From NCBI GenBank assembly GCA_027459485.1, contig DAIDIG010000001.1, positions 550,619 to 614,618 of the forward strand: a stretch of 64,000 nucleotides of DNA, given 5' to 3'. Of the stretch, positions 5,798 to 33,373 are shown piece by piece. A model generated the notes under the pieces. That model made no database searches, was not told the origin of the DNA, and worked only from the letters and a program-made list of their open reading frames with translations. A program made the translations under genes and the position numbers. The stretch is from Bdellovibrionales bacterium. GTDB lineage: Bacteria > Bdellovibrionota > Bdellovibrionia > Bdellovibrionales > UBA1609. The stretch's first letter is position 1, and the number at the start of each line of letters is the position of its first letter.

Positions 5798-5826
5798 TCA
5801 AGCTTACCGGATAATGTGCCGATAAG
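5798..5826 (+). promoter_or_regulatory. Sigma28/FliA-like promoter TCAA-N17-CCGATAAG
   Basis: TCAA 5798-5801, GCCGATAA(G) 5818-5826; same arrangement upstream of two other lipoprotein genes in the window. Confidence 0.6.
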
Positions 5827-5833
5827 ATAAGTT

Positions 5834-8242
5834 ATGGGCAAGCGGTACGTTTGTTTATTGGCTCTATCGCTACTTGCCTCCGGCTGCGGCAAGGTCTGGG
5901 TTTCGTTGTCGTATCGACAATCTCCGACAAATTCAGGGCCGATAAGTTATCATCTCGTATTTACCACTGAACCGTCTTCAAGCATTTCTGCGGGCGCAAC
6001 CCTCACAACGGGCGGGGTGATCGAGGTTGAAGATAACAACGGCAACCTCATTACCACTGGGGCGTTGTCCAACGCTACCATCACTTTGTCAGACTCAAGC
6101 GGCAACGGCGGCATTGCAGGCGTCACGAGCGTCACAGCGGCGGGCGGTATCGCTACGATTCCGAACAATACTTTAACGTTTGAAAAAACGGGCACAACCA
6201 GTTTATCCGCTACAACAACCGTCAGCGGATATGGAACACTCAGCGCGGCAAGCAGTTCGATTGCCATCGCGACATCGTCATTCAGCACAGTCTCGGCGTT
6301 TTCGGGCCCCGATGACCCAAACGGGTCGATAAATGGCACCGGCACTGCCGCGAGATTATGGAACCCATCCGCGCTCACGACTGATGGTATTAACGTGTAT
6401 ATTCTTGAAAATTATCCGAACTGCCTAATGCGTGAGTATAATATTTCGAATGGTGCGGTTACGACTCTCGCGGGGCAACTTTACAATTGTGGATATACCG
6501 ATGGCGCTAATGGCACGAGCACCCTTGGCGGATCCTTTAGTGGTCAAGGTGTTCAACAAATGGCGACTGACGGCACCTATGTTTATTTTGTCGACGGGCA
6601 CTCAATCCGAGCAGCGACAATCAGCAACGGCACTATCACGACGATCGCTGGCAGCCCAACATCTTCAGGTTATACGAATGCCGACGGGACAAGTGCACGC
6701 TTTGGTGCAATCGGTGGAATTTATATTAACGGTACAACTTTATATATTGCCGATAACGGCAACCATTATATTCGCGCCTTGAGCCTCACATCGCCGTACG
6801 CTGTAACGACTGTTGCGGGTAATGGCACAGGTGCTATTCAAGACAGCAGCCCTGGTCCAGCTGAAGTCGATAACATGGATTATTTTGCCGGCGATTCAAC
6901 CAATCTTTATTTCGTCGATTATAATGGTACGAATTACGATGTCCGGCAAATGAACTGGTCGACAGATACGCTAACTACAGATGCGACGGGGCTTAATAGT
7001 TCTTGCGGTAGCTCCGTTGGTTCGATTGCAGTCACCAGCACAACGATGTACCTGTCGTGCCAAGACGTCATAAAAGCTGCGACCATCGGAACTTGGACAT
7101 GGTCTGTCGTTGCGGGTGCCGGCTGGAGCGGTGGTGATGTGGACGGGAGCGCTGGCACCTCAAGGCTTGGTGGTGGTACTAGCCATGGTTATAATGGCGA
7201 CTTTCTCTCGCCTTACGGCACCGATATTTACATTGCCGATACCGTAAATGGCGCTCTTCGCGTACTTGGCACGTCAAACATCGTCACAACTTTGGCGGGT
7301 ATGCCCAATTCCGGATACGGTTCAGTACAGAACACGACGGCGGCGAATACTCGCTTTGAAGATCTGCAGGATCTCGTGAGCAACGGCACAAACCTATACG
7401 GCTTAGATTATCAGACCAATTTGTTTCCGATCATCTCGATGAGCAACGGTTCAAGCGGTCCACCAATGGGTTCAGGATGGGGGCTTCAATCGCCATACAA
7501 TCAAGTGCTCGCCTACATGAATGGCAAAATTTATTACCTCGATCCTTGTAAAATCTGGGAGGTTAATCCGACTGCCGATACTATTGCAGGTCTCGTCGGT
7601 AACAACAGCTCGTGCGTCGAAAACGAAGGGAGCTTTTCAGTAGCCACGTTTAAAGGTCTTAAAGCTATTGCATCGGATCAACAAAATTTATATGTGTTTG
7701 ACAACGATGTGATTAAAAAACTCGATTTGACCACCCAAACGGTCAGTGTGCTCTCGGGTCAAGCCGGCACGAGTGGGTGCATCACTGGTTCAGCATCAAC
7801 TTCGCGCTATGATGGTAGCACAGGTTTTATGGCCTACATGAATGGCAATCTTTATTTTACTGAGAACTGTAATCATGGTTCTGTTGTTCAGGTGAATACA
7901 CAAACGGGCGCTTCATCAATTGTGGCAGGTAACGGAATATACGGGTATGTGAACGGAACTTTGGCAAACGCCGAATTTAGCAGGTCTGGAGGGGGCATCA
8001 CAAGCGATGGGCAAAATTTGTATATTTATGACCTGGGTAACGGAGCGATTCGCGAAGTGAATATCAGCGGCAATTCCGTTACGACTTTATTCGGTTCGAC
8101 GAGTGAAATGTGGGATATCGATGGCTCGCTCGCCAACGCACGCGAAAGCGCGAATTCTTATACGGCCGGGCCATTTTCTATTTATTACGGTTACGGTAAA
8201 CTATATATCGTCAATAGTCGCGGAATCAGAGTGGTGCAATAA
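5834..8242 (+). CDS. Surface lipoprotein with Ig-like N-terminal region and NHL/beta-propeller-like repeats
   Basis: 802 aa; lipobox LLASGC; repeated 'DG..A.F....G...D...LYI.D..N..IR' units. Confidence 0.85.
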   Translation: MGKRYVCLLALSLLASGCGKVWVSLSYRQSPTNSGPISYHLVFTTEPSSSISAGATLTTGGVIEVEDNNGNLITTGALSNATITLSDSSGNGGIAGVTSVTAAGGIATIPNNTLTFEKTGTTSLSATTTVSGYGTLSAASSSIAIATSSFSTVSAFSGPDDPNGSINGTGTAARLWNPSALTTDGINVYILENYPNCLMREYNISNGAVTTLAGQLYNCGYTDGANGTSTLGGSFSGQGVQQMATDGTYVYFVDGHSIRAATISNGTITTIAGSPTSSGYTNADGTSARFGAIGGIYINGTTLYIADNGNHYIRALSLTSPYAVTTVAGNGTGAIQDSSPGPAEVDNMDYFAGDSTNLYFVDYNGTNYDVRQMNWSTDTLTTDATGLNSSCGSSVGSIAVTSTTMYLSCQDVIKAATIGTWTWSVVAGAGWSGGDVDGSAGTSRLGGGTSHGYNGDFLSPYGTDIYIADTVNGALRVLGTSNIVTTLAGMPNSGYGSVQNTTAANTRFEDLQDLVSNGTNLYGLDYQTNLFPIISMSNGSSGPPMGSGWGLQSPYNQVLAYMNGKIYYLDPCKIWEVNPTADTIAGLVGNNSSCVENEGSFSVATFKGLKAIASDQQNLYVFDNDVIKKLDLTTQTVSVLSGQAGTSGCITGSASTSRYDGSTGFMAYMNGNLYFTENCNHGSVVQVNTQTGASSIVAGNGIYGYVNGTLANAEFSRSGGGITSDGQNLYIYDLGNGAIREVNISGNSVTTLFGSTSEMWDIDGSLANARESANSYTAGPFSIYYGYGKLYIVNSRGIRVVQ

Positions 8243-23631: not shown

Positions 23632-24276
23632 TCAATTCCCGTCACTTTGACCAACGGTGATAAACTGGCTTAGTGTCGAATTCAGCATCTGCCGCGAAAC
23701 AGATTGGACGACAGCATTGGGCGCACCAGAGGCCTGTAGCACGCGAAGGCCCCAAACATTACAAATTATAGACTTTGCAATTTCTTTAAATTTCGCATCA
23801 TCAAATGAGCCCGAGCTTTTTAAATATAAATAAATTTCATTTTCTATCAAATTTAAATAGTGACATGCCATTTTGTGTAAACGATTCTTGGCAACCGCGT
23901 TTTCGATGACCGTCTTTACCAAAAAACACCCTCTGCGTTGCGACTCTAATTTTTGCCGATTAATAATGGTTGCAAAAAAGTTTTTGATTCCGGCCGGCGC
24001 AGGCGCCGAGCGCAAAGATCTTTGGGCTTCAGCAACCGCGCGCTCGCCGTATAGTCGAAGAGTTGCTATGAATAAGTTCTCTTTATTCTTAAAAGTGCCG
24101 TATAGGCTGCCCGGCAGAAGTCCAGTCGATTGAACGAGGTCTGAAACAGCTGCGCCTTCGAATCCTCGGTCCCAGAACAATTCCAAAGCATTCTGTACGG
24201 CGGTGTGATGCTCGCGTTTGTGGGGGCGCCCAGCTTGCCTCAGAGGGTTCGATCGAGTTGTCCTTAGCTTTTTCAT
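23632..24276 (-). CDS. TetR/AcrR family transcriptional regulator
   Basis: ALELFWDRGFEGAAVSDLVQSTGLLPGSLYGTFKNKENLFIATL. Confidence 0.93.
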   Translation of the reverse strand: MKKLRTTRSNPLRQAGRPHKREHHTAVQNALELFWDRGFEGAAVSDLVQSTGLLPGSLYGTFKNKENLFIATLRLYGERAVAEAQRSLRSAPAPAGIKNFFATIINRQKLESQRRGCFLVKTVIENAVAKNRLHKMACHYLNLIENEIYLYLKSSGSFDDAKFKEIAKSIICNVWGLRVLQASGAPNAVVQSVSRQMLNSTLSQFITVGQSDGN

Positions 24277-24317
24277 TGTACCAATCTATCACAAATCCGC
24301 GCGCATTTGCACCATTT

Positions 24318-24333
24318 TTGACGGTTCGTTCAA
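24318..24333. promoter_or_regulatory. Candidate TetR operator 1: TTGACGGTTCGTTCAA
   Basis: TTGA-N8-TCAA in the divergent intergenic region. Confidence 0.5.
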
Positions 24334-24367
24334 TAATTATTGCTTTAAACTTCACGCCTTGCTATTA

Positions 24368-24383
24368 TTGAACGGTCACTCAA
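24368..24383. promoter_or_regulatory. Candidate TetR operator 2: TTGAACGGTCACTCAA
   Basis: TTGA-N8-TCAA, 50 bp from operator 1; one strand of each site begins TTGAACG. Confidence 0.5.
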
Positions 24384-24411
24384 AAAATAGAATCATTTTA
24401 AGGAGGTAATT

Positions 24412-25091: not shown

Positions 25092-26885
25092 TCAATTCGT
25101 TGTCCAGCCAAAATTGTTGATATAAAAAATCACGCTTTGGCTAGGCTGAATTGTTGATTTGTAAAAAGAAGTCCGACGGTAATACATTGTTTCGCTCGGT
25201 AGATTGGTTGTTGAATTTATGCCTGGCCCAGCAATTGTGAATTTACCTACTGCACCATTTTGGGCATAATTTATGATGTAGGTGCCTGAAGGCACACCAG
25301 GTCCGGTTATGAATCCACCAGCATCTACAATAGATGGCCCGGAGTTAATTTTTGTAACGGTTAAGGTATTGCCCGAAATTGAGCCGGTAAAGCTGCATGT
25401 TCCGATGCCAAGATCGACGAGTGGGATTTTGTAAGTTGCCCACGTGTTTGGTTTGGGTGTTGGCCCATAGGCAAAAACATTCGAAATTGAATTCCATCCG
25501 TAGACATCACCCGGCGGCAGACGTGACACGTGACTCAGAAAGAGGCTGTAGCCAGCCGTAGCGCCTGGGTTAATATCGATGGTGTAATAATTAAAGGCGC
25601 CGATTTCTAAATTATCTATTATTGCCATTGGGGCTGCCGCCACGGGATTAAGGCCGCCCCCGTTTGTCATATTTGCTTCAAGATCGAAAACTCCACCAAG
25701 CGGATTGCCATTTGAGCTGTTATAAGTCGAAATTGCGCCACCATAGTCAAAGTTGTATTCGCTCCAGTTTGAATAGCCATTTTGGTACCCATATGCTGAG
25801 TAGTTTGCCGTGAGCGGCCCTTCTCCGCCTTTAGTATCTACGGCAGAAACCGCATACGAGTAAGTGGCCGTTGCGGGGGCCGTGACATCTGGCACAGCAC
25901 TACCAGTCGCAGATGTGTCTTGAAATATCCAAGCGCTAAACGTGATCGGGGCAGTTGCGGTGCCGGCGGTTTGCGAAATATTCACGTGGTAAGTTCCAAC
26001 TCCGCCTGTTGATCCACTGAGTTGTGGTTGGTCAATCATTGTGCCGGCGGCTACACCCGCGCCTTGCCAACGAGCGCCCTCAATAAGATTGCCCGATAAA
26101 ACTGAAGTGACCGTAAGCATATTGCCCGAAATATATCCCTTAAACTGGGTCGGGGCAGACGCAGTCGCATAGGCAATACCGTTTCGATATATTTTATAAT
26201 GGTCGATCGGATTCGGACCAGGAGTCGCCGCTTGCCATTCAATCGCTTGATAATTTGATAATGCCATCGCAACGGCGCCATAGTTATTATTCAAATTAGG
26301 TCCGCCTTGGTTGACCAAATCAAGACCTGTTGGGGCTGAGGGCAGACTCGATGACCCACCTGATCCACTGATCGTAATAATCGCGCTTGCGAGCGCTATT
26401 GTTACGCCGCCTTTCGGATTGGAGAGCGAGATTGTAAAAGATTTTTGCCCAGAAAACGGGTTCACATTATTAATTGAAATTATAATTGTTTTTGTTGAAG
26501 AGTCACCGGCAGCCCAATTGAGCGTTCCGCCGATCGCCGTGTAGTCGCTCCCGGCGAGAGCCGTGCCATCAATTGTTGCATAATCAGCGCTAACGGCGCC
26601 TGCTGAGCCGGCAACTCGAGTGATCTGAATGGAAATGGAGCCCGCGCTTTGCGAAACCATCAAAGTGCTGTTAGCGAATTGCAAACTGCCAGATGATGTC
26701 GCGGACGATGTGCTAGAGCCATCTGAACTGCCCAAACTTGCTAAGCTCGAGTTTGCGCTAAAGCTGCCTGAACAATTATTAAACAAAACAAGTAACCCAG
26801 CCAAAATCCCAATTGCTGTAATAAACTTAGATTGCCTCAAATTGCCATTGTACCGCAATGCCACATAACACCCCCAGAATCGCAT
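25092..26885 (-). CDS. Surface lipoprotein with Calx-beta, FN3-like and phage-tail-like repeat segments
   Basis: LLVLFNNC lipobox-like; 'YATIDGTALAGSDYTAIGGTLNWAAGDSSTKTI' Calx-beta; two 'SGN.LTVT...SG...' repeats. Confidence 0.8.
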   Translation of the reverse strand: MRFWGCYVALRYNGNLRQSKFITAIGILAGLLVLFNNCSGSFSANSSLASLGSSDGSSTSSATSSGSLQFANSTLMVSQSAGSISIQITRVAGSAGAVSADYATIDGTALAGSDYTAIGGTLNWAAGDSSTKTIIISINNVNPFSGQKSFTISLSNPKGGVTIALASAIITISGSGGSSSLPSAPTGLDLVNQGGPNLNNNYGAVAMALSNYQAIEWQAATPGPNPIDHYKIYRNGIAYATASAPTQFKGYISGNMLTVTSVLSGNLIEGARWQGAGVAAGTMIDQPQLSGSTGGVGTYHVNISQTAGTATAPITFSAWIFQDTSATGSAVPDVTAPATATYSYAVSAVDTKGGEGPLTANYSAYGYQNGYSNWSEYNFDYGGAISTYNSSNGNPLGGVFDLEANMTNGGGLNPVAAAPMAIIDNLEIGAFNYYTIDINPGATAGYSLFLSHVSRLPPGDVYGWNSISNVFAYGPTPKPNTWATYKIPLVDLGIGTCSFTGSISGNTLTVTKINSGPSIVDAGGFITGPGVPSGTYIINYAQNGAVGKFTIAGPGINSTTNLPSETMYYRRTSFYKSTIQPSQSVIFYINNFGWTTN

Positions 26886-26889
26886 TTAA

Positions 26890-26918
26890 CTTATCGGAAT
26901 GGGCCTTCAGACACTTGA
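26890..26918 (-). promoter_or_regulatory. Sigma28/FliA-like promoter TCAA-N17-CCGATAAG
   Basis: Complement of CTTATCGG (26890-26897) and TTGA (26915-26918), 17 nt apart. Confidence 0.6.
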
Positions 26919-26956
26919 CTTATATCTTGTATCGAAACGAGAAAGGGCGGATTAAC

Positions 26957-26980
26957 TGTTTACAGACGCTTCTGTAAACA
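26957..26980. promoter_or_regulatory. 24-bp palindrome, perfect 10-bp arms (on minus strand TGTTTACAGA-AGCG-TCTGTAAACA)
   Basis: 38 bp upstream of the TCAA element; matched by 29678-29701. Confidence 0.65.
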
Positions 26981-27018
26981 CGCGTGCTTTTAGTGACGCC
27001 CAAATAAAAGTAACCTCT

Positions 27019-29604
27019 CTAATGAACCAGTACGTATTGTGGAGATGTAAACTGCCCGTTGCCCGTTCCGATACTACCAAATTTTGTTTGGTAAACACCG
27101 GCGGAATTGAAAATGTCAACGTAGCTATTGCTTTCATCTAAAACGTAAACGTTGCCCGCTGAATCAAACGACAGTGACGGCAAACCATTGCTAAATCCCA
27201 AATGATCGATCTGTGAAGCGTAGCTGCCGCTAGAGTCAAATTCTTCGACGCGAGCGTTGGCTTCGTCAGTCATGTACAAGTTGCCAAAACGGTCAAATGT
27301 TACTCCTCCAGGGTTACCAAACTGACCGTTGCCGCCACCAGATGAACCAATATTTTTTAAATATTTGCCGACGTAGTTAAAGACTTGGATTGTGCCATTT
27401 GCATAATCAGTAACGTAAACATTACTCGCGGAATCGACTGCTATCCCTGAGGGCACCTCAAATTGACCGACCCCAGTGCCCTTGGAGCCGAAGCTTAATA
27501 AATAATTGCCTGAAGCATCAAATGCCTCGATACGGTAATTACCTTGATCAATTACGTAGTAATCGCCAACTGAGTTGATCGCAATGGCCTGAGGGGTATT
27601 CAATTGACCATTACTTGAACCGAAAGTACCAAACGAACCAATTAAAGAACCTGATAAATTGAACTCGGCAATACGGTTGTCGCTTGAATCAGCAACCCAA
27701 ATGTTATTTGAAGTGTCGAAGATTAACCCCATTGGGTAATTTAACGAACTATTTCCGAACTGTGCTTGATAAGTGCCGCCCAAAGAGAATGTTTCTATTC
27801 TCATATCATTCGTGTCAGAAACATACACATACTGCGGACCGACCTTAACTGTTCCTGATAGATCATTATTGCTGACACTGTCAGGATCAGAGACAACGAC
27901 TGTGACGTTGTAAACATCACCGGCTGTAAGGCCCGTGACCGTTGCCGTAAAATTTCCCGCTTCAGTGCCTGTTTCGCTTGTGCGAATCATGGTTTGGCTT
28001 GCGCTATAGGGCGATGACTCGGCCGAGCAACCCGAGTGAGCCGTGTTGTCGCAATAATAAATAGTTGCTGAGTTATTGGCATTTGCGTCGCCGCTGAAAA
28101 GCGCTGTCGCTATTAAACTCGTCGTTGAATTACTCAAATTGAGACCTATCATCTCTGTCGCATTGCTTGAAGATGGCACGGCTTCACCGGCACCAATATC
28201 CCACCCAGCACCTTGCCCTCGAGCGCCCCCGGCAATGTCGTTGTTAAAAGGTAAGTTTGGATCGCTTGAAAGATTTTCGCCCTTATCTTGTGCCGCGGTA
28301 TCATACGAGGCTAGAAGATAGTTGCCGCTAGGAGCATCTGCAAATGCCACTGTGGCGTTTGTGATGTCGTGGGCACCACCGGTAGTCGTTGTGTCACTTG
28401 AAATATTGTAATCGCTGCCCAAAGCAAAGCCCCCATAGGCATACCCTTGCGACTTCGCTCCCTGCACGATATTGTTTTTCAACACGAGATTATTTTTAGT
28501 GCCGTTAAGAAAGAACCCGAAGTCAAACGATCCAACGACGGTGTTATTATAGGCATAAATATTAGCGGCATAGCTGGGACCAGCGCCACTAGATCCGTCT
28601 GCAATTCCTTGTTGACCTGAGGGAGATCCACCAAGCGGCATAAACACGACGTTGTTCTCGATGTAAACATTCCCCGCAAGATTGGCAGGGCTCGATGAAA
28701 TAAAAATGCCTTCTGGCCAAAAGGAACCTGGCGGCACTTCAATTATATTATCTTCGATGTATGTATCGCCCGCGCCCGAGATTCCGGTCCCGGGATCGTC
28801 AAAGCATAAGGCCGCACATCCTGAATAGGCACCGCCAAGCTTCAAACCGTCAACACGAATTGCATTGACTTGAATATTAATATCATAATTCCCACTCGAG
28901 GCATTTAACTGATACCCGCCCGAATTCCACGAACCGCTATGGCGTTGTGAGACGCCCACATCAGTCGACAGGTAGGGGGTAAAAATTCGCAGGTAATTAT
29001 TTAAGCCTGTCTTCCACCCAGCCGTATCGACAGCCGTCGTGTCGGTTCCGTCTGCGTAGCACGCGAAGTTCCATGCTTCGTTGTTTGCTACAAGATCATT
29101 ATTGCTGTTGAACGTATCAAAGCCACGCACCCCAACTGGAATGCTGGAGTTGGCATTCGTATATGAGTTGCCCGCCATTGCCTGCGCTAAACTTGTATAT
29201 GCGCGATAGATCGACCATGTCGTGTCGCCTGATGCCGTCACAGGTGTTCCACCGCTTGCGGACTGAAGTGTGTATTGAGTGCTTGACGTGCGGCCGCTAA
29301 TGAACGCGATCTTCGTGCCACTTGCATATACAACCGCGTCGCCAACTCCAATGTTGTTAGGCAGCGCTGACGCGAATGTCGCTGAGGTCCCTGAAATTGT
29401 AATTGCATTGGATGCGCCACTGGCAAGCGCAGAGGTGTTACCCGGCCCAATAGAGCGATAAATTTGAATGGTTGGGCCACCGCCAGCGCCACCCCCAATA
29501 CTTGGCGTTGAGTTCACTTTCAACTGGACCCAGACCTTGCCGCAACCGGTAAGACCAACCAGACTATATGCTAGTGCAAAGAGCAAAACGTTCAGTCCGT
29601 TCAT
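27019..29604 (-). CDS. Surface lipoprotein: right-handed beta-helix plus C-terminal NHL propeller
   Basis: Lipobox LVGLTGC; 'VYIENNVVFM..AYNNTVVG..NNLVLKNNIVQ' beta-helix; about six NHL units 'GTGVGQFEVPSGIAVDSASNVYVTDYANGTIQVF'. Confidence 0.88.
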   Translation of the reverse strand: MNGLNVLLFALAYSLVGLTGCGKVWVQLKVNSTPSIGGGAGGGPTIQIYRSIGPGNTSALASGASNAITISGTSATFASALPNNIGVGDAVVYASGTKIAFISGRTSSTQYTLQSASGGTPVTASGDTTWSIYRAYTSLAQAMAGNSYTNANSSIPVGVRGFDTFNSNNDLVANNEAWNFACYADGTDTTAVDTAGWKTGLNNYLRIFTPYLSTDVGVSQRHSGSWNSGGYQLNASSGNYDINIQVNAIRVDGLKLGGAYSGCAALCFDDPGTGISGAGDTYIEDNIIEVPPGSFWPEGIFISSSPANLAGNVYIENNVVFMPLGGSPSGQQGIADGSSGAGPSYAANIYAYNNTVVGSFDFGFFLNGTKNNLVLKNNIVQGAKSQGYAYGGFALGSDYNISSDTTTTGGAHDITNATVAFADAPSGNYLLASYDTAAQDKGENLSSDPNLPFNNDIAGGARGQGAGWDIGAGEAVPSSSNATEMIGLNLSNSTTSLIATALFSGDANANNSATIYYCDNTAHSGCSAESSPYSASQTMIRTSETGTEAGNFTATVTGLTAGDVYNVTVVVSDPDSVSNNDLSGTVKVGPQYVYVSDTNDMRIETFSLGGTYQAQFGNSSLNYPMGLIFDTSNNIWVADSSDNRIAEFNLSGSLIGSFGTFGSSNGQLNTPQAIAINSVGDYYVIDQGNYRIEAFDASGNYLLSFGSKGTGVGQFEVPSGIAVDSASNVYVTDYANGTIQVFNYVGKYLKNIGSSGGGNGQFGNPGGVTFDRFGNLYMTDEANARVEEFDSSGSYASQIDHLGFSNGLPSLSFDSAGNVYVLDESNSYVDIFNSAGVYQTKFGSIGTGNGQFTSPQYVLVH

Positions 29605-29610
29605 AAGCAA

Positions 29611-29639
29611 CTTATCGGAATTTGTTGAGAAAGTTTTGA
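29611..29639 (-). promoter_or_regulatory. Sigma28/FliA-like promoter TCAA-N17-CCGATAAG
   Basis: Complement of CTTATCGG (29611-29618) and TTGA (29636-29639), 17 nt apart. Confidence 0.6.
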
Positions 29640-29677
29640 CTTTAGATTTGGCTCAAAACGAGAGGAATTTCTACAAC

Positions 29678-29701
29678 CGTTTACCTAAACTTCTGTAAAC
29701 G
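29678..29701. promoter_or_regulatory. 24-bp palindrome (on minus strand CGTTTACAGA-AGTT-TAGGTAAACG)
   Basis: Same core and same 38-bp spacing to TCAA as 26957-26980. Confidence 0.65.
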
Positions 29702-29737: not shown

Positions 29738-30430
29738 TTAGACTTTTAAAAGACCTTCTCGATCTACGATCACGATTTTGCGTTTGTCACGTCGAATCAG
29801 GTTCGACTTTTCAAACTCAGTTAGAGTACGGGCTAAACTCTCAACAATTGTGCCCGAAAGTTCTGCTAGAGACCCTCGGTCGATATCCGCCACGATAATT
29901 CTGCCATTCGCGGAGTCCTTGCCAAATCGATCGCTAAGATAAACTAGGGTCGCGGCCACGCGACTTTTGAGATAGTAATCAGATAGTGTACTAATACGCG
30001 ACTCAGCTTTGATCATTTGTTGCTTCAAGCGAACAGCCATGCGGAGTAACAACTTCGGGTACTTAAGACACAACTCTTGAAACTGTTGTTTTGGAAAAAA
30101 ACAAACATGGGCGTGGGGGCTAATAACTTTAGTGGTGTACTCGTAGGTAGGAATATTATCGCAGTTATAGTTTACAAGAATGTCGCCGTAGCCATAAATA
30201 CTGACAACTTTTTTGCGTCCCGCTCGACCCGCGCTGAGCAATATTATACAGCAGCCAAGACAGTAAAATCCTTCTTTGCCATTATACCTAAAATCAAGCT
30301 TGTCCCCTCGTTTCACAGAGATAATCGTTTTAAGCTTATCCAACTCTTTTCCTTCGTCTTCAGATATATCAGCCAACCACGAAAGGATTCGGTTAGGGCA
30401 GGTACCACAACATGTTTCAGTACATTCCAT
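29738..30430 (-). CDS. Crp/Fnr family transcriptional regulator with N-terminal Cys cluster
   Basis: cNMP-binding-like fold, C-terminal 'RGSLAELSGTIVESLARTLTEFEKSNLIRRDKRKIVIVDREGL' HTH. Confidence 0.88.
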   Translation of the reverse strand: MECTETCCGTCPNRILSWLADISEDEGKELDKLKTIISVKRGDKLDFRYNGKEGFYCLGCCIILLSAGRAGRKKVVSIYGYGDILVNYNCDNIPTYEYTTKVISPHAHVCFFPKQQFQELCLKYPKLLLRMAVRLKQQMIKAESRISTLSDYYLKSRVAATLVYLSDRFGKDSANGRIIVADIDRGSLAELSGTIVESLARTLTEFEKSNLIRRDKRKIVIVDREGLLKV

Positions 30431-30662
30431 TTTTTCGAGAATATTCAGATATTTGCGGCAAAAGAAGTCCTGCTGTGAGGCGGCAATTTGATTATTAACA
30501 AAATCGCTTTAGGGATCTTTTCTGATGAAATTGCGCGACCGATGAATGGCTCAGTCAATTTGCAGCTCGGCCAAAAAATACTTTTGGCTTTGTGACAAAT
30601 TGGCAGTTGATTGCAACATAATTCGACTGAAGAGTGCATAAAAGTCACGTGATGGGGAAAAT

Positions 30663-33240: not shown

Positions 33241-33373
33241 AAATAAAATATCGAAATTGATAATGATCAACATCTCGGGTTACGTGGGTGACAAAACTTC
33301 CCAAGCCTCTGGGCAGCGCGCCCATTGCTCAGTGCGTGCGAAAAATATTTTAAAAATTTAATTTTAATCTATC

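Follow-up and report, generated by a model that had tools for sequence, protein, structure and literature searches.

A widely spaced palindrome in four copies as a candidate operator of FliA-type promoters before surface-protein genes of a Bdellovibrionales bacterium

In this study, we analysed a 64,000-nt stretch of DNA from a Bdellovibrionales bacterium (hereafter, the window) and propose that two 24-bp palindromes in it belong to a set of four genomic copies of an operator, TGTTTAC-N10-GTAAACA, for a dimeric regulator that would modulate FliA promoters of surface-protein genes. On the sequence evidence, we give this reading a probability of about 0.7. We regard the element as a putative operator that is undescribed but ordinary in kind; searching the literature for the motif letters returned nothing relevant among titles and abstracts. 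An earlier note on this DNA had suggested a conserved regulatory site that was previously undescribed, and this suggestion is supported by four exact intergenic copies, by FliA-type promoters at a set distance from them, and by palindrome arms that are kept between otherwise saturated paralogues.

Palindromes and FliA-type promoters in the window

Both palindromes are read on the minus strand. The first, TGTTTACAGAAGCGTCTGTAAACA (26957-26980), has perfect arms of 10 bp, and the second, CGTTTACAGAAGTTTAGGTAAACG (29678-29701), is perfect over its 7 outer bp and paired at 8/10 arm positions. Written out as operator copies 1 and 2, these correspond to TGTTTAC-AGAAGCGTCT-GTAAACA and CGTTTAC-AGAAGTTTAG-GTAAACG. 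A TCAA element starts exactly 38 nt downstream of each (at 26918 and 29639, minus strand) and is followed by N17-CCGATA, which places CCGATA 59 nt from the 3' end of the palindrome in both cases. The earlier note had described the two palindromes and their 38-nt spacing, and its coordinates and sequences proved exact. The pair is also above chance: allowing up to three mismatches, GTTTACAGAN4TCTGTAAAC is found in the window at the two palindromes only, where 0.01 occurrences would be expected, and the whole 2.75-Mb genome yields the same two places and no others. Likewise, the block said to be shared between palindrome and TCAA is present at the same offset in both and exceeds chance. The 38-nt spacers of copies 1 and 2 are identical at 19/38 positions (p ~0.002 in shuffles), including a run of 8 identical bases, TCTCGTTT, located 14 nt downstream of each copy (26935-26942 and 29656-29663, minus strand; p ~0.0005 in shuffles).

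While the position of the TCAA element had been given correctly, it had been missed that TCAA and CCGATA together match the consensus of FliA (sigma-28), reported as TTAAG-N16-CCGATA from the attack phase of Bdellovibrio bacteriovorus, where FliA promoters are described as controlling cell-surface and chemotaxis genes (PMC3627812). The promoter downstream of copy 1, TCAAG-N16-CCGATA (26892-26918, minus strand), agrees with the consensus as published at 10/11 positions, and that downstream of copy 2, TCAAA-N16-CCGATA (29613-29639, minus strand), fits it as well (PMC3627812). A fliA gene is present in this genome (TIGR02479, 276.5 bits, above the curated cut-off), and a relaxed FliA pattern gave 51 genomic matches, compared to 16 for its reversed control. 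Since a further FliA-type promoter in the window (5798-5824) has no palindrome, the operator would not be a general part of FliA promoters here.

At many FliA-type promoters of this genome, the ATG is located only 6-10 nt past CCGATA, as seen in the window at 26875-26918, 29597-29639 and 5798-5836, and elsewhere at loci L034, L050, L051, L058, L060 and L061. Because of this short gap, leaderless mRNAs can be predicted for the FliA regulon of surface proteins.

Copy 1 is located upstream of a gene for a secreted or lipoprotein-like protein of 597 aa with a Calx-beta domain (25092-26885, minus strand; ATG 6 nt past CCGATA). When compared with the rest of the genome, this protein matches itself alone, and a homologue was not found. 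Copy 2 is located upstream of a gene for a lipoprotein-like protein of 863 aa with NHL beta-propeller repeats (27019-29610, minus strand; signal ...LTGCGKVWV). An 802-aa lipoprotein elsewhere in the window (5834-8242) carries the signal peptide of the NHL paralogues (MGKR...GCGKVWV) and has a FliA-type promoter and no palindrome, and another protein, at L058, has a related signal peptide (VTGCGRIW).

Copies of the motif in the genome and in the order

Across the genome, the conserved element is GTTTAC-N10-GTAAAC rather than the inner ACAGA bases. In the genome-wide search that the earlier note had called for, the full ACAGA form was confined to the two known sites, and the outer core added two more copies. 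Four exact copies of the latter occur in 2.75 Mb. About 0.15 would be expected, because the numbers of 1-mismatch and 2-mismatch sites (5 and 88) follow the chance ratio of 36:594, and by our own arithmetic the Poisson chance of at least four exact copies is about 2e-5. Copy 3, TGTTTACTCGTTTTTAAGTAAACA, is found on contig 4 upstream of a paralogue of the NHL gene, and keeps the outer GTTTAC/GTAAAC and not the inner ACAGA. Copy 4, CGTTTACCGGACAGTTGGTAAACA, is found on the same contig between rpoN and the gene for a 754-aa surface lipoprotein. The inner 10 bp of copies 1-4 read AGAAGCGTCT, AGAAGTTTAG, TCGTTTTTAA and CGGACAGTTG, leaving GTTTAC/GTAAAC alone constant.

All four exact copies are intergenic and lie 5' of large secreted or lipoprotein-like (surface-protein) genes. 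For copies 1-4, the distance from the 24-mer to the [CT]CGATA that follows it on the coding strand is 59, 59, 69 and 62 nt, respectively. The centre of the palindrome is ~85 bp upstream of the expected start for copies 1 and 2, ~95 bp for copy 3 and ~88 bp for copy 4. The distance from copy 3 to its -10 is exactly 10 nt, one helical turn, longer than in copies 1 and 2. Copy 3 also has a block like TCTCGTTT, namely GCTTGTTT, which matches at 6/8 bases and has the same 14-nt offset, suggesting that block and palindrome travel together; the additional 10 nt, roughly a turn of the helix, are inserted between block and promoter. For copies 3 and 4, agreement with the FliA consensus is limited to the -10, in which copy 4 has one mismatch. 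The -35 of copy 3 is poor, and the promoter of copy 4 is poorer in having TCGATA, a weak -35, and a distance of 62 nt that is out of helical phase with the other copies. Outside the palindrome, the spacer of copy 4 bears little resemblance to the others.

A relaxed scan with GTTT-N14-AAAC-N48-78-YCGATA retrieved the same four sites and three others that lack GTTTAC/GTAAAC, while the reversed control gave four. Of the 1-mismatch sites, 4/5 fall within open frames; the fifth (L091) is intergenic and lacks a CGATA at the required distance. As is generally expected of a transcription-factor operator, the element is enriched over chance, intergenic, constrained in its distance to a promoter, and found in all cases before surface-protein genes. 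The motif is common to non-homologous genes, given that the Calx-beta gene has no homologue in the genome, and with such genes among those downstream, simple co-inheritance with a single gene family does not account for it.

In a scan of 141 genomes of the order, any other genome had at most two copies of GTTTAC-N10-GTAAAC. The copies inspected in these genomes are nearly all inside open reading frames and none has [CT]CGATA at 59-69 nt downstream; as such, no other genome has the motif at this distance before a FliA-type -10 among the copies inspected. In other genomes, the NHL protein has homologues of 33-44% identity over parts only, and their tested promoters do not contain the motif; close orthologues of the downstream genes were not found in the order-wide comparison. 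The orthologous promoters that the earlier note had proposed for comparison therefore gave no conservation in the relatives tested. In several genomes from genera g33 and g47 (L099, L101, L102 and L103), GTTTAC-N10-GTAAAC occurs with similar centres and mostly inside reading frames, and these copies probably represent one conserved coding stretch.

The neighbouring Crp/Fnr-type protein and other explanations

Which protein would read this element? The earlier note had put forward the adjacent Crp/Fnr-type regulator (29738-30430, minus strand; N-terminal cysteines, recognition helix TIVESLAR), based on the Fnr-type geometry of ACAGA-N4-TCTGT. This regulator would then bind the palindrome and activate the FliA promoters in the manner of CRP at aer and trg. 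Its gene does end only 36 nt from copy 2, it is the sole Crp/Fnr-type protein found in the genome at E <= 1e-3, and there is a precedent for Crp-type activation of sigma-28 promoters, as CRP of E. coli directly activates aer and trg (PMC2859248). We nevertheless judge this protein an unlikely binder. Only the outer GTTTAC/GTAAAC are conserved, whereas copies 3 and 4 show free variation in the 5-N4-5 core (ACAGA...TCTGT), and an Fnr 5-N4-5 geometry was rejected for that reason. Moreover, these two copies are not beside the Crp/Fnr-type gene.

The recognition helix points in the same direction. The best solved relatives of the protein are FNR structures, and TIVESLAR aligns to TVETISR of FNR. 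Judging from E209, S212 and R213 of FNR, TTGA-type half-sites are expected for a helix of this kind, and since the helix of the present protein has E-x-x-A-R (E-S-L-A-R), TTGA-type sites are predicted for it too. The palindromes have no TGA where an E-x-x-[SAG]-R helix would read, and neither a conserved 5-N4-5 arrangement nor TGA-type half-sites, as looked for in an Fnr/Crp-type site, were found in them. Instead, FNR boxes adjoin cheA and the Crp/Fnr-type gene itself. An exact box, TTGATAATGATCAA (33257-33270, plus strand), is the sole intergenic one of eight exact TTGATN4ATCAA in the genome and a better candidate target. It is located ~160 nt before cheA (33429), and the Fnr-type gene is 2.8 kb away. 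A one-mismatch box, TTGATTATTAACAA (30488-30501, plus strand), is located just upstream of the Fnr-type gene, with the proviso that such boxes are not above chance in the window (7 versus 10 expected). Finally, the genome with the nearest relative of the Fnr-type protein (G051, 37%) has no copy of the palindrome motif. A search for related loci with this protein found no relative.

The proximity of an FNR box upstream of cheA to an Fnr-type gene does hint at oxygen control over chemotaxis genes. The window also contains a 23-nt inverted repeat, CGTTCAATAAT...ATTATTGAACG (24315-24386), upstream of a TetR-family gene (23632-24276), and this is possibly that gene's own operator.

It is very improbable that the palindromes are recombination or insertion sites which import surface-protein cassettes. 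The idea comes from contig 4, where copies 3 and 4 stand at the two ends of a gene pair and bound exactly this block. The block lies between hpf and rpoN, which are usually adjacent in Proteobacteria. The pair consists of the NHL paralogue and, convergent with it, the 754-aa surface-lipoprotein gene, directly behind which a lipoprotein-like reading frame of 65 codons is found; this arrangement (L083, 5266-10577) resembles the insertion of a surface-gene pair. On contig 1, however, each gene has one copy 5' of it and there is no copy past the last gene. Furthermore, the distance to the -10 is conserved, and the central 10 bp differ among the copies, while site-specific recombinases need identical crossover regions.

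We attach very little weight to RNA hairpins, in the form of terminators or 3'-end stabilisers of the upstream gene. Copies 1, 2 and 4 do lie ~20-38 nt past the stop codon of that gene, and copy 1 folds better than shuffles (z -2.6). However, no copy is followed by a T-run, and no transcript would end at copy 3, as its upstream neighbour hpf is divergent; intrinsic terminators were rejected on these grounds. In addition, folding is not significantly better than in shuffles for copies 2-4, copies 2 and 4 have minimum-energy structures in which the outer arms are not mutually paired as a simple hairpin, and terminators would not have a common arm sequence or a common spacing to a downstream -10.

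Hardly any credence is left for the notion that both promoters derive from a single ancestral promoter and are alike by descent only, without function, even though the NHL genes behind copies 2 and 3 are paralogous (66-67% identity) and the spacers of copies 1 and 2 resemble each other at the said 19/38 bases. The NHL paralogues agree at 33% of their four-fold sites (95/291), which are thus saturated, and a recent segmental duplication is thereby excluded. Yet copies 2 and 3 agree at all 12 GTTTAC/GTAAAC positions and throughout the 12-nt ATTCCGATAAGT, against 4/10 for the inner 10 bp, a pattern that, by comparison of sequences, indicates constraint on the palindrome arms and the -10. Copy 1, moreover, precedes a gene without a homologue in the genome, and the spacer of copy 4 has little in common with the others. 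Common descent alone is therefore largely refuted. The earlier note had named a recently duplicated promoter as its own alternative and had set a test between this and function; the saturated sites contradict the former, and the retained arms favour the latter.

Proposed mode of action and relation to known systems

In the operator reading that we prefer, a putative dimeric DNA-binding regulator probably reads both outer half-sites of 6-7 bp, with the operator ~85-95 bp upstream of the point at which transcription from FliA (sigma-28)-dependent promoters of large surface proteins is expected to begin. From there, the regulator would act on FliA-RNA polymerase, most likely by activation and less likely by repression; a location this far upstream fits an activator better than a repressor that works by simple blockage. 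As a consequence of such action from the operator, only the operator-bearing subset of the FliA regulon would respond to a second signal. For protein binding, the use of FliA and the direction of control at the operator, this is what we infer. With ~16 bp between its half-site centres, the palindrome has an unusual spacing for a simple helix-turn-helix dimer. In Bdellovibrio, FliA is regarded as the master switch for genes of the attack phase, and a third of the promoters concerned are described as having no known regulator (PMC3627812). A more specific version, which we put forward only tentatively and rate somewhat below even odds, is that a lineage-specific regulator with an unusual, widely spaced palindrome acts near -85/-95 on FliA-RNA polymerase to select the surface lipoproteins that this relative of Bdellovibrio displays as part of its motile (attack-phase) programme. 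If true, a second sequence-specific operator on a few FliA-type promoters for surface proteins would reveal how bacteria of this kind select the surface molecules they display. The palindrome also offers an exact 24-bp bait for finding its regulator.

Inverted repeats with wide spacing are known from CIRCE, the operator of HrcA (9-N9-9), and from the BirA operator (TTGTAAACC-N15/16-GGTTTACAA). The present palindrome resembles both in its widely spaced half-sites and shares the hexamer GTAAAC with that of BirA. However, the half-sites of BirA face the opposite way, the sequence of CIRCE is unrelated, and neither system has related target genes. With FNR boxes (TTGAT-N4-ATCAA), the palindrome has in common its dyad symmetry and the geometry proposed in the earlier note, but its conserved bases are mostly outside the 14-bp FNR core, and real FNR-like boxes are found elsewhere in the window. 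At aer and trg of E. coli, which are CRP-dependent sigma-28 promoters, a second regulator is likewise placed upstream, although CRP is centred there at -49.5 on TGTGA-N6-TCACA, whereas the palindrome is near -85/-95 and has no TGA core (PMC2859248). The closest likeness in promoters is to the FliA attack-phase regulon of B. bacteriovorus, with its reported TTAAG-N16-CCGATA promoters and its surface-protein and chemotaxis targets; the present host is related to Bdellovibrio and carries fliA as well. The description of the FliA motif in that study, which was derived from 50 bases upstream of starts, reports no operator further upstream, whereas four promoters in the genome analysed here carry one (PMC3627812).
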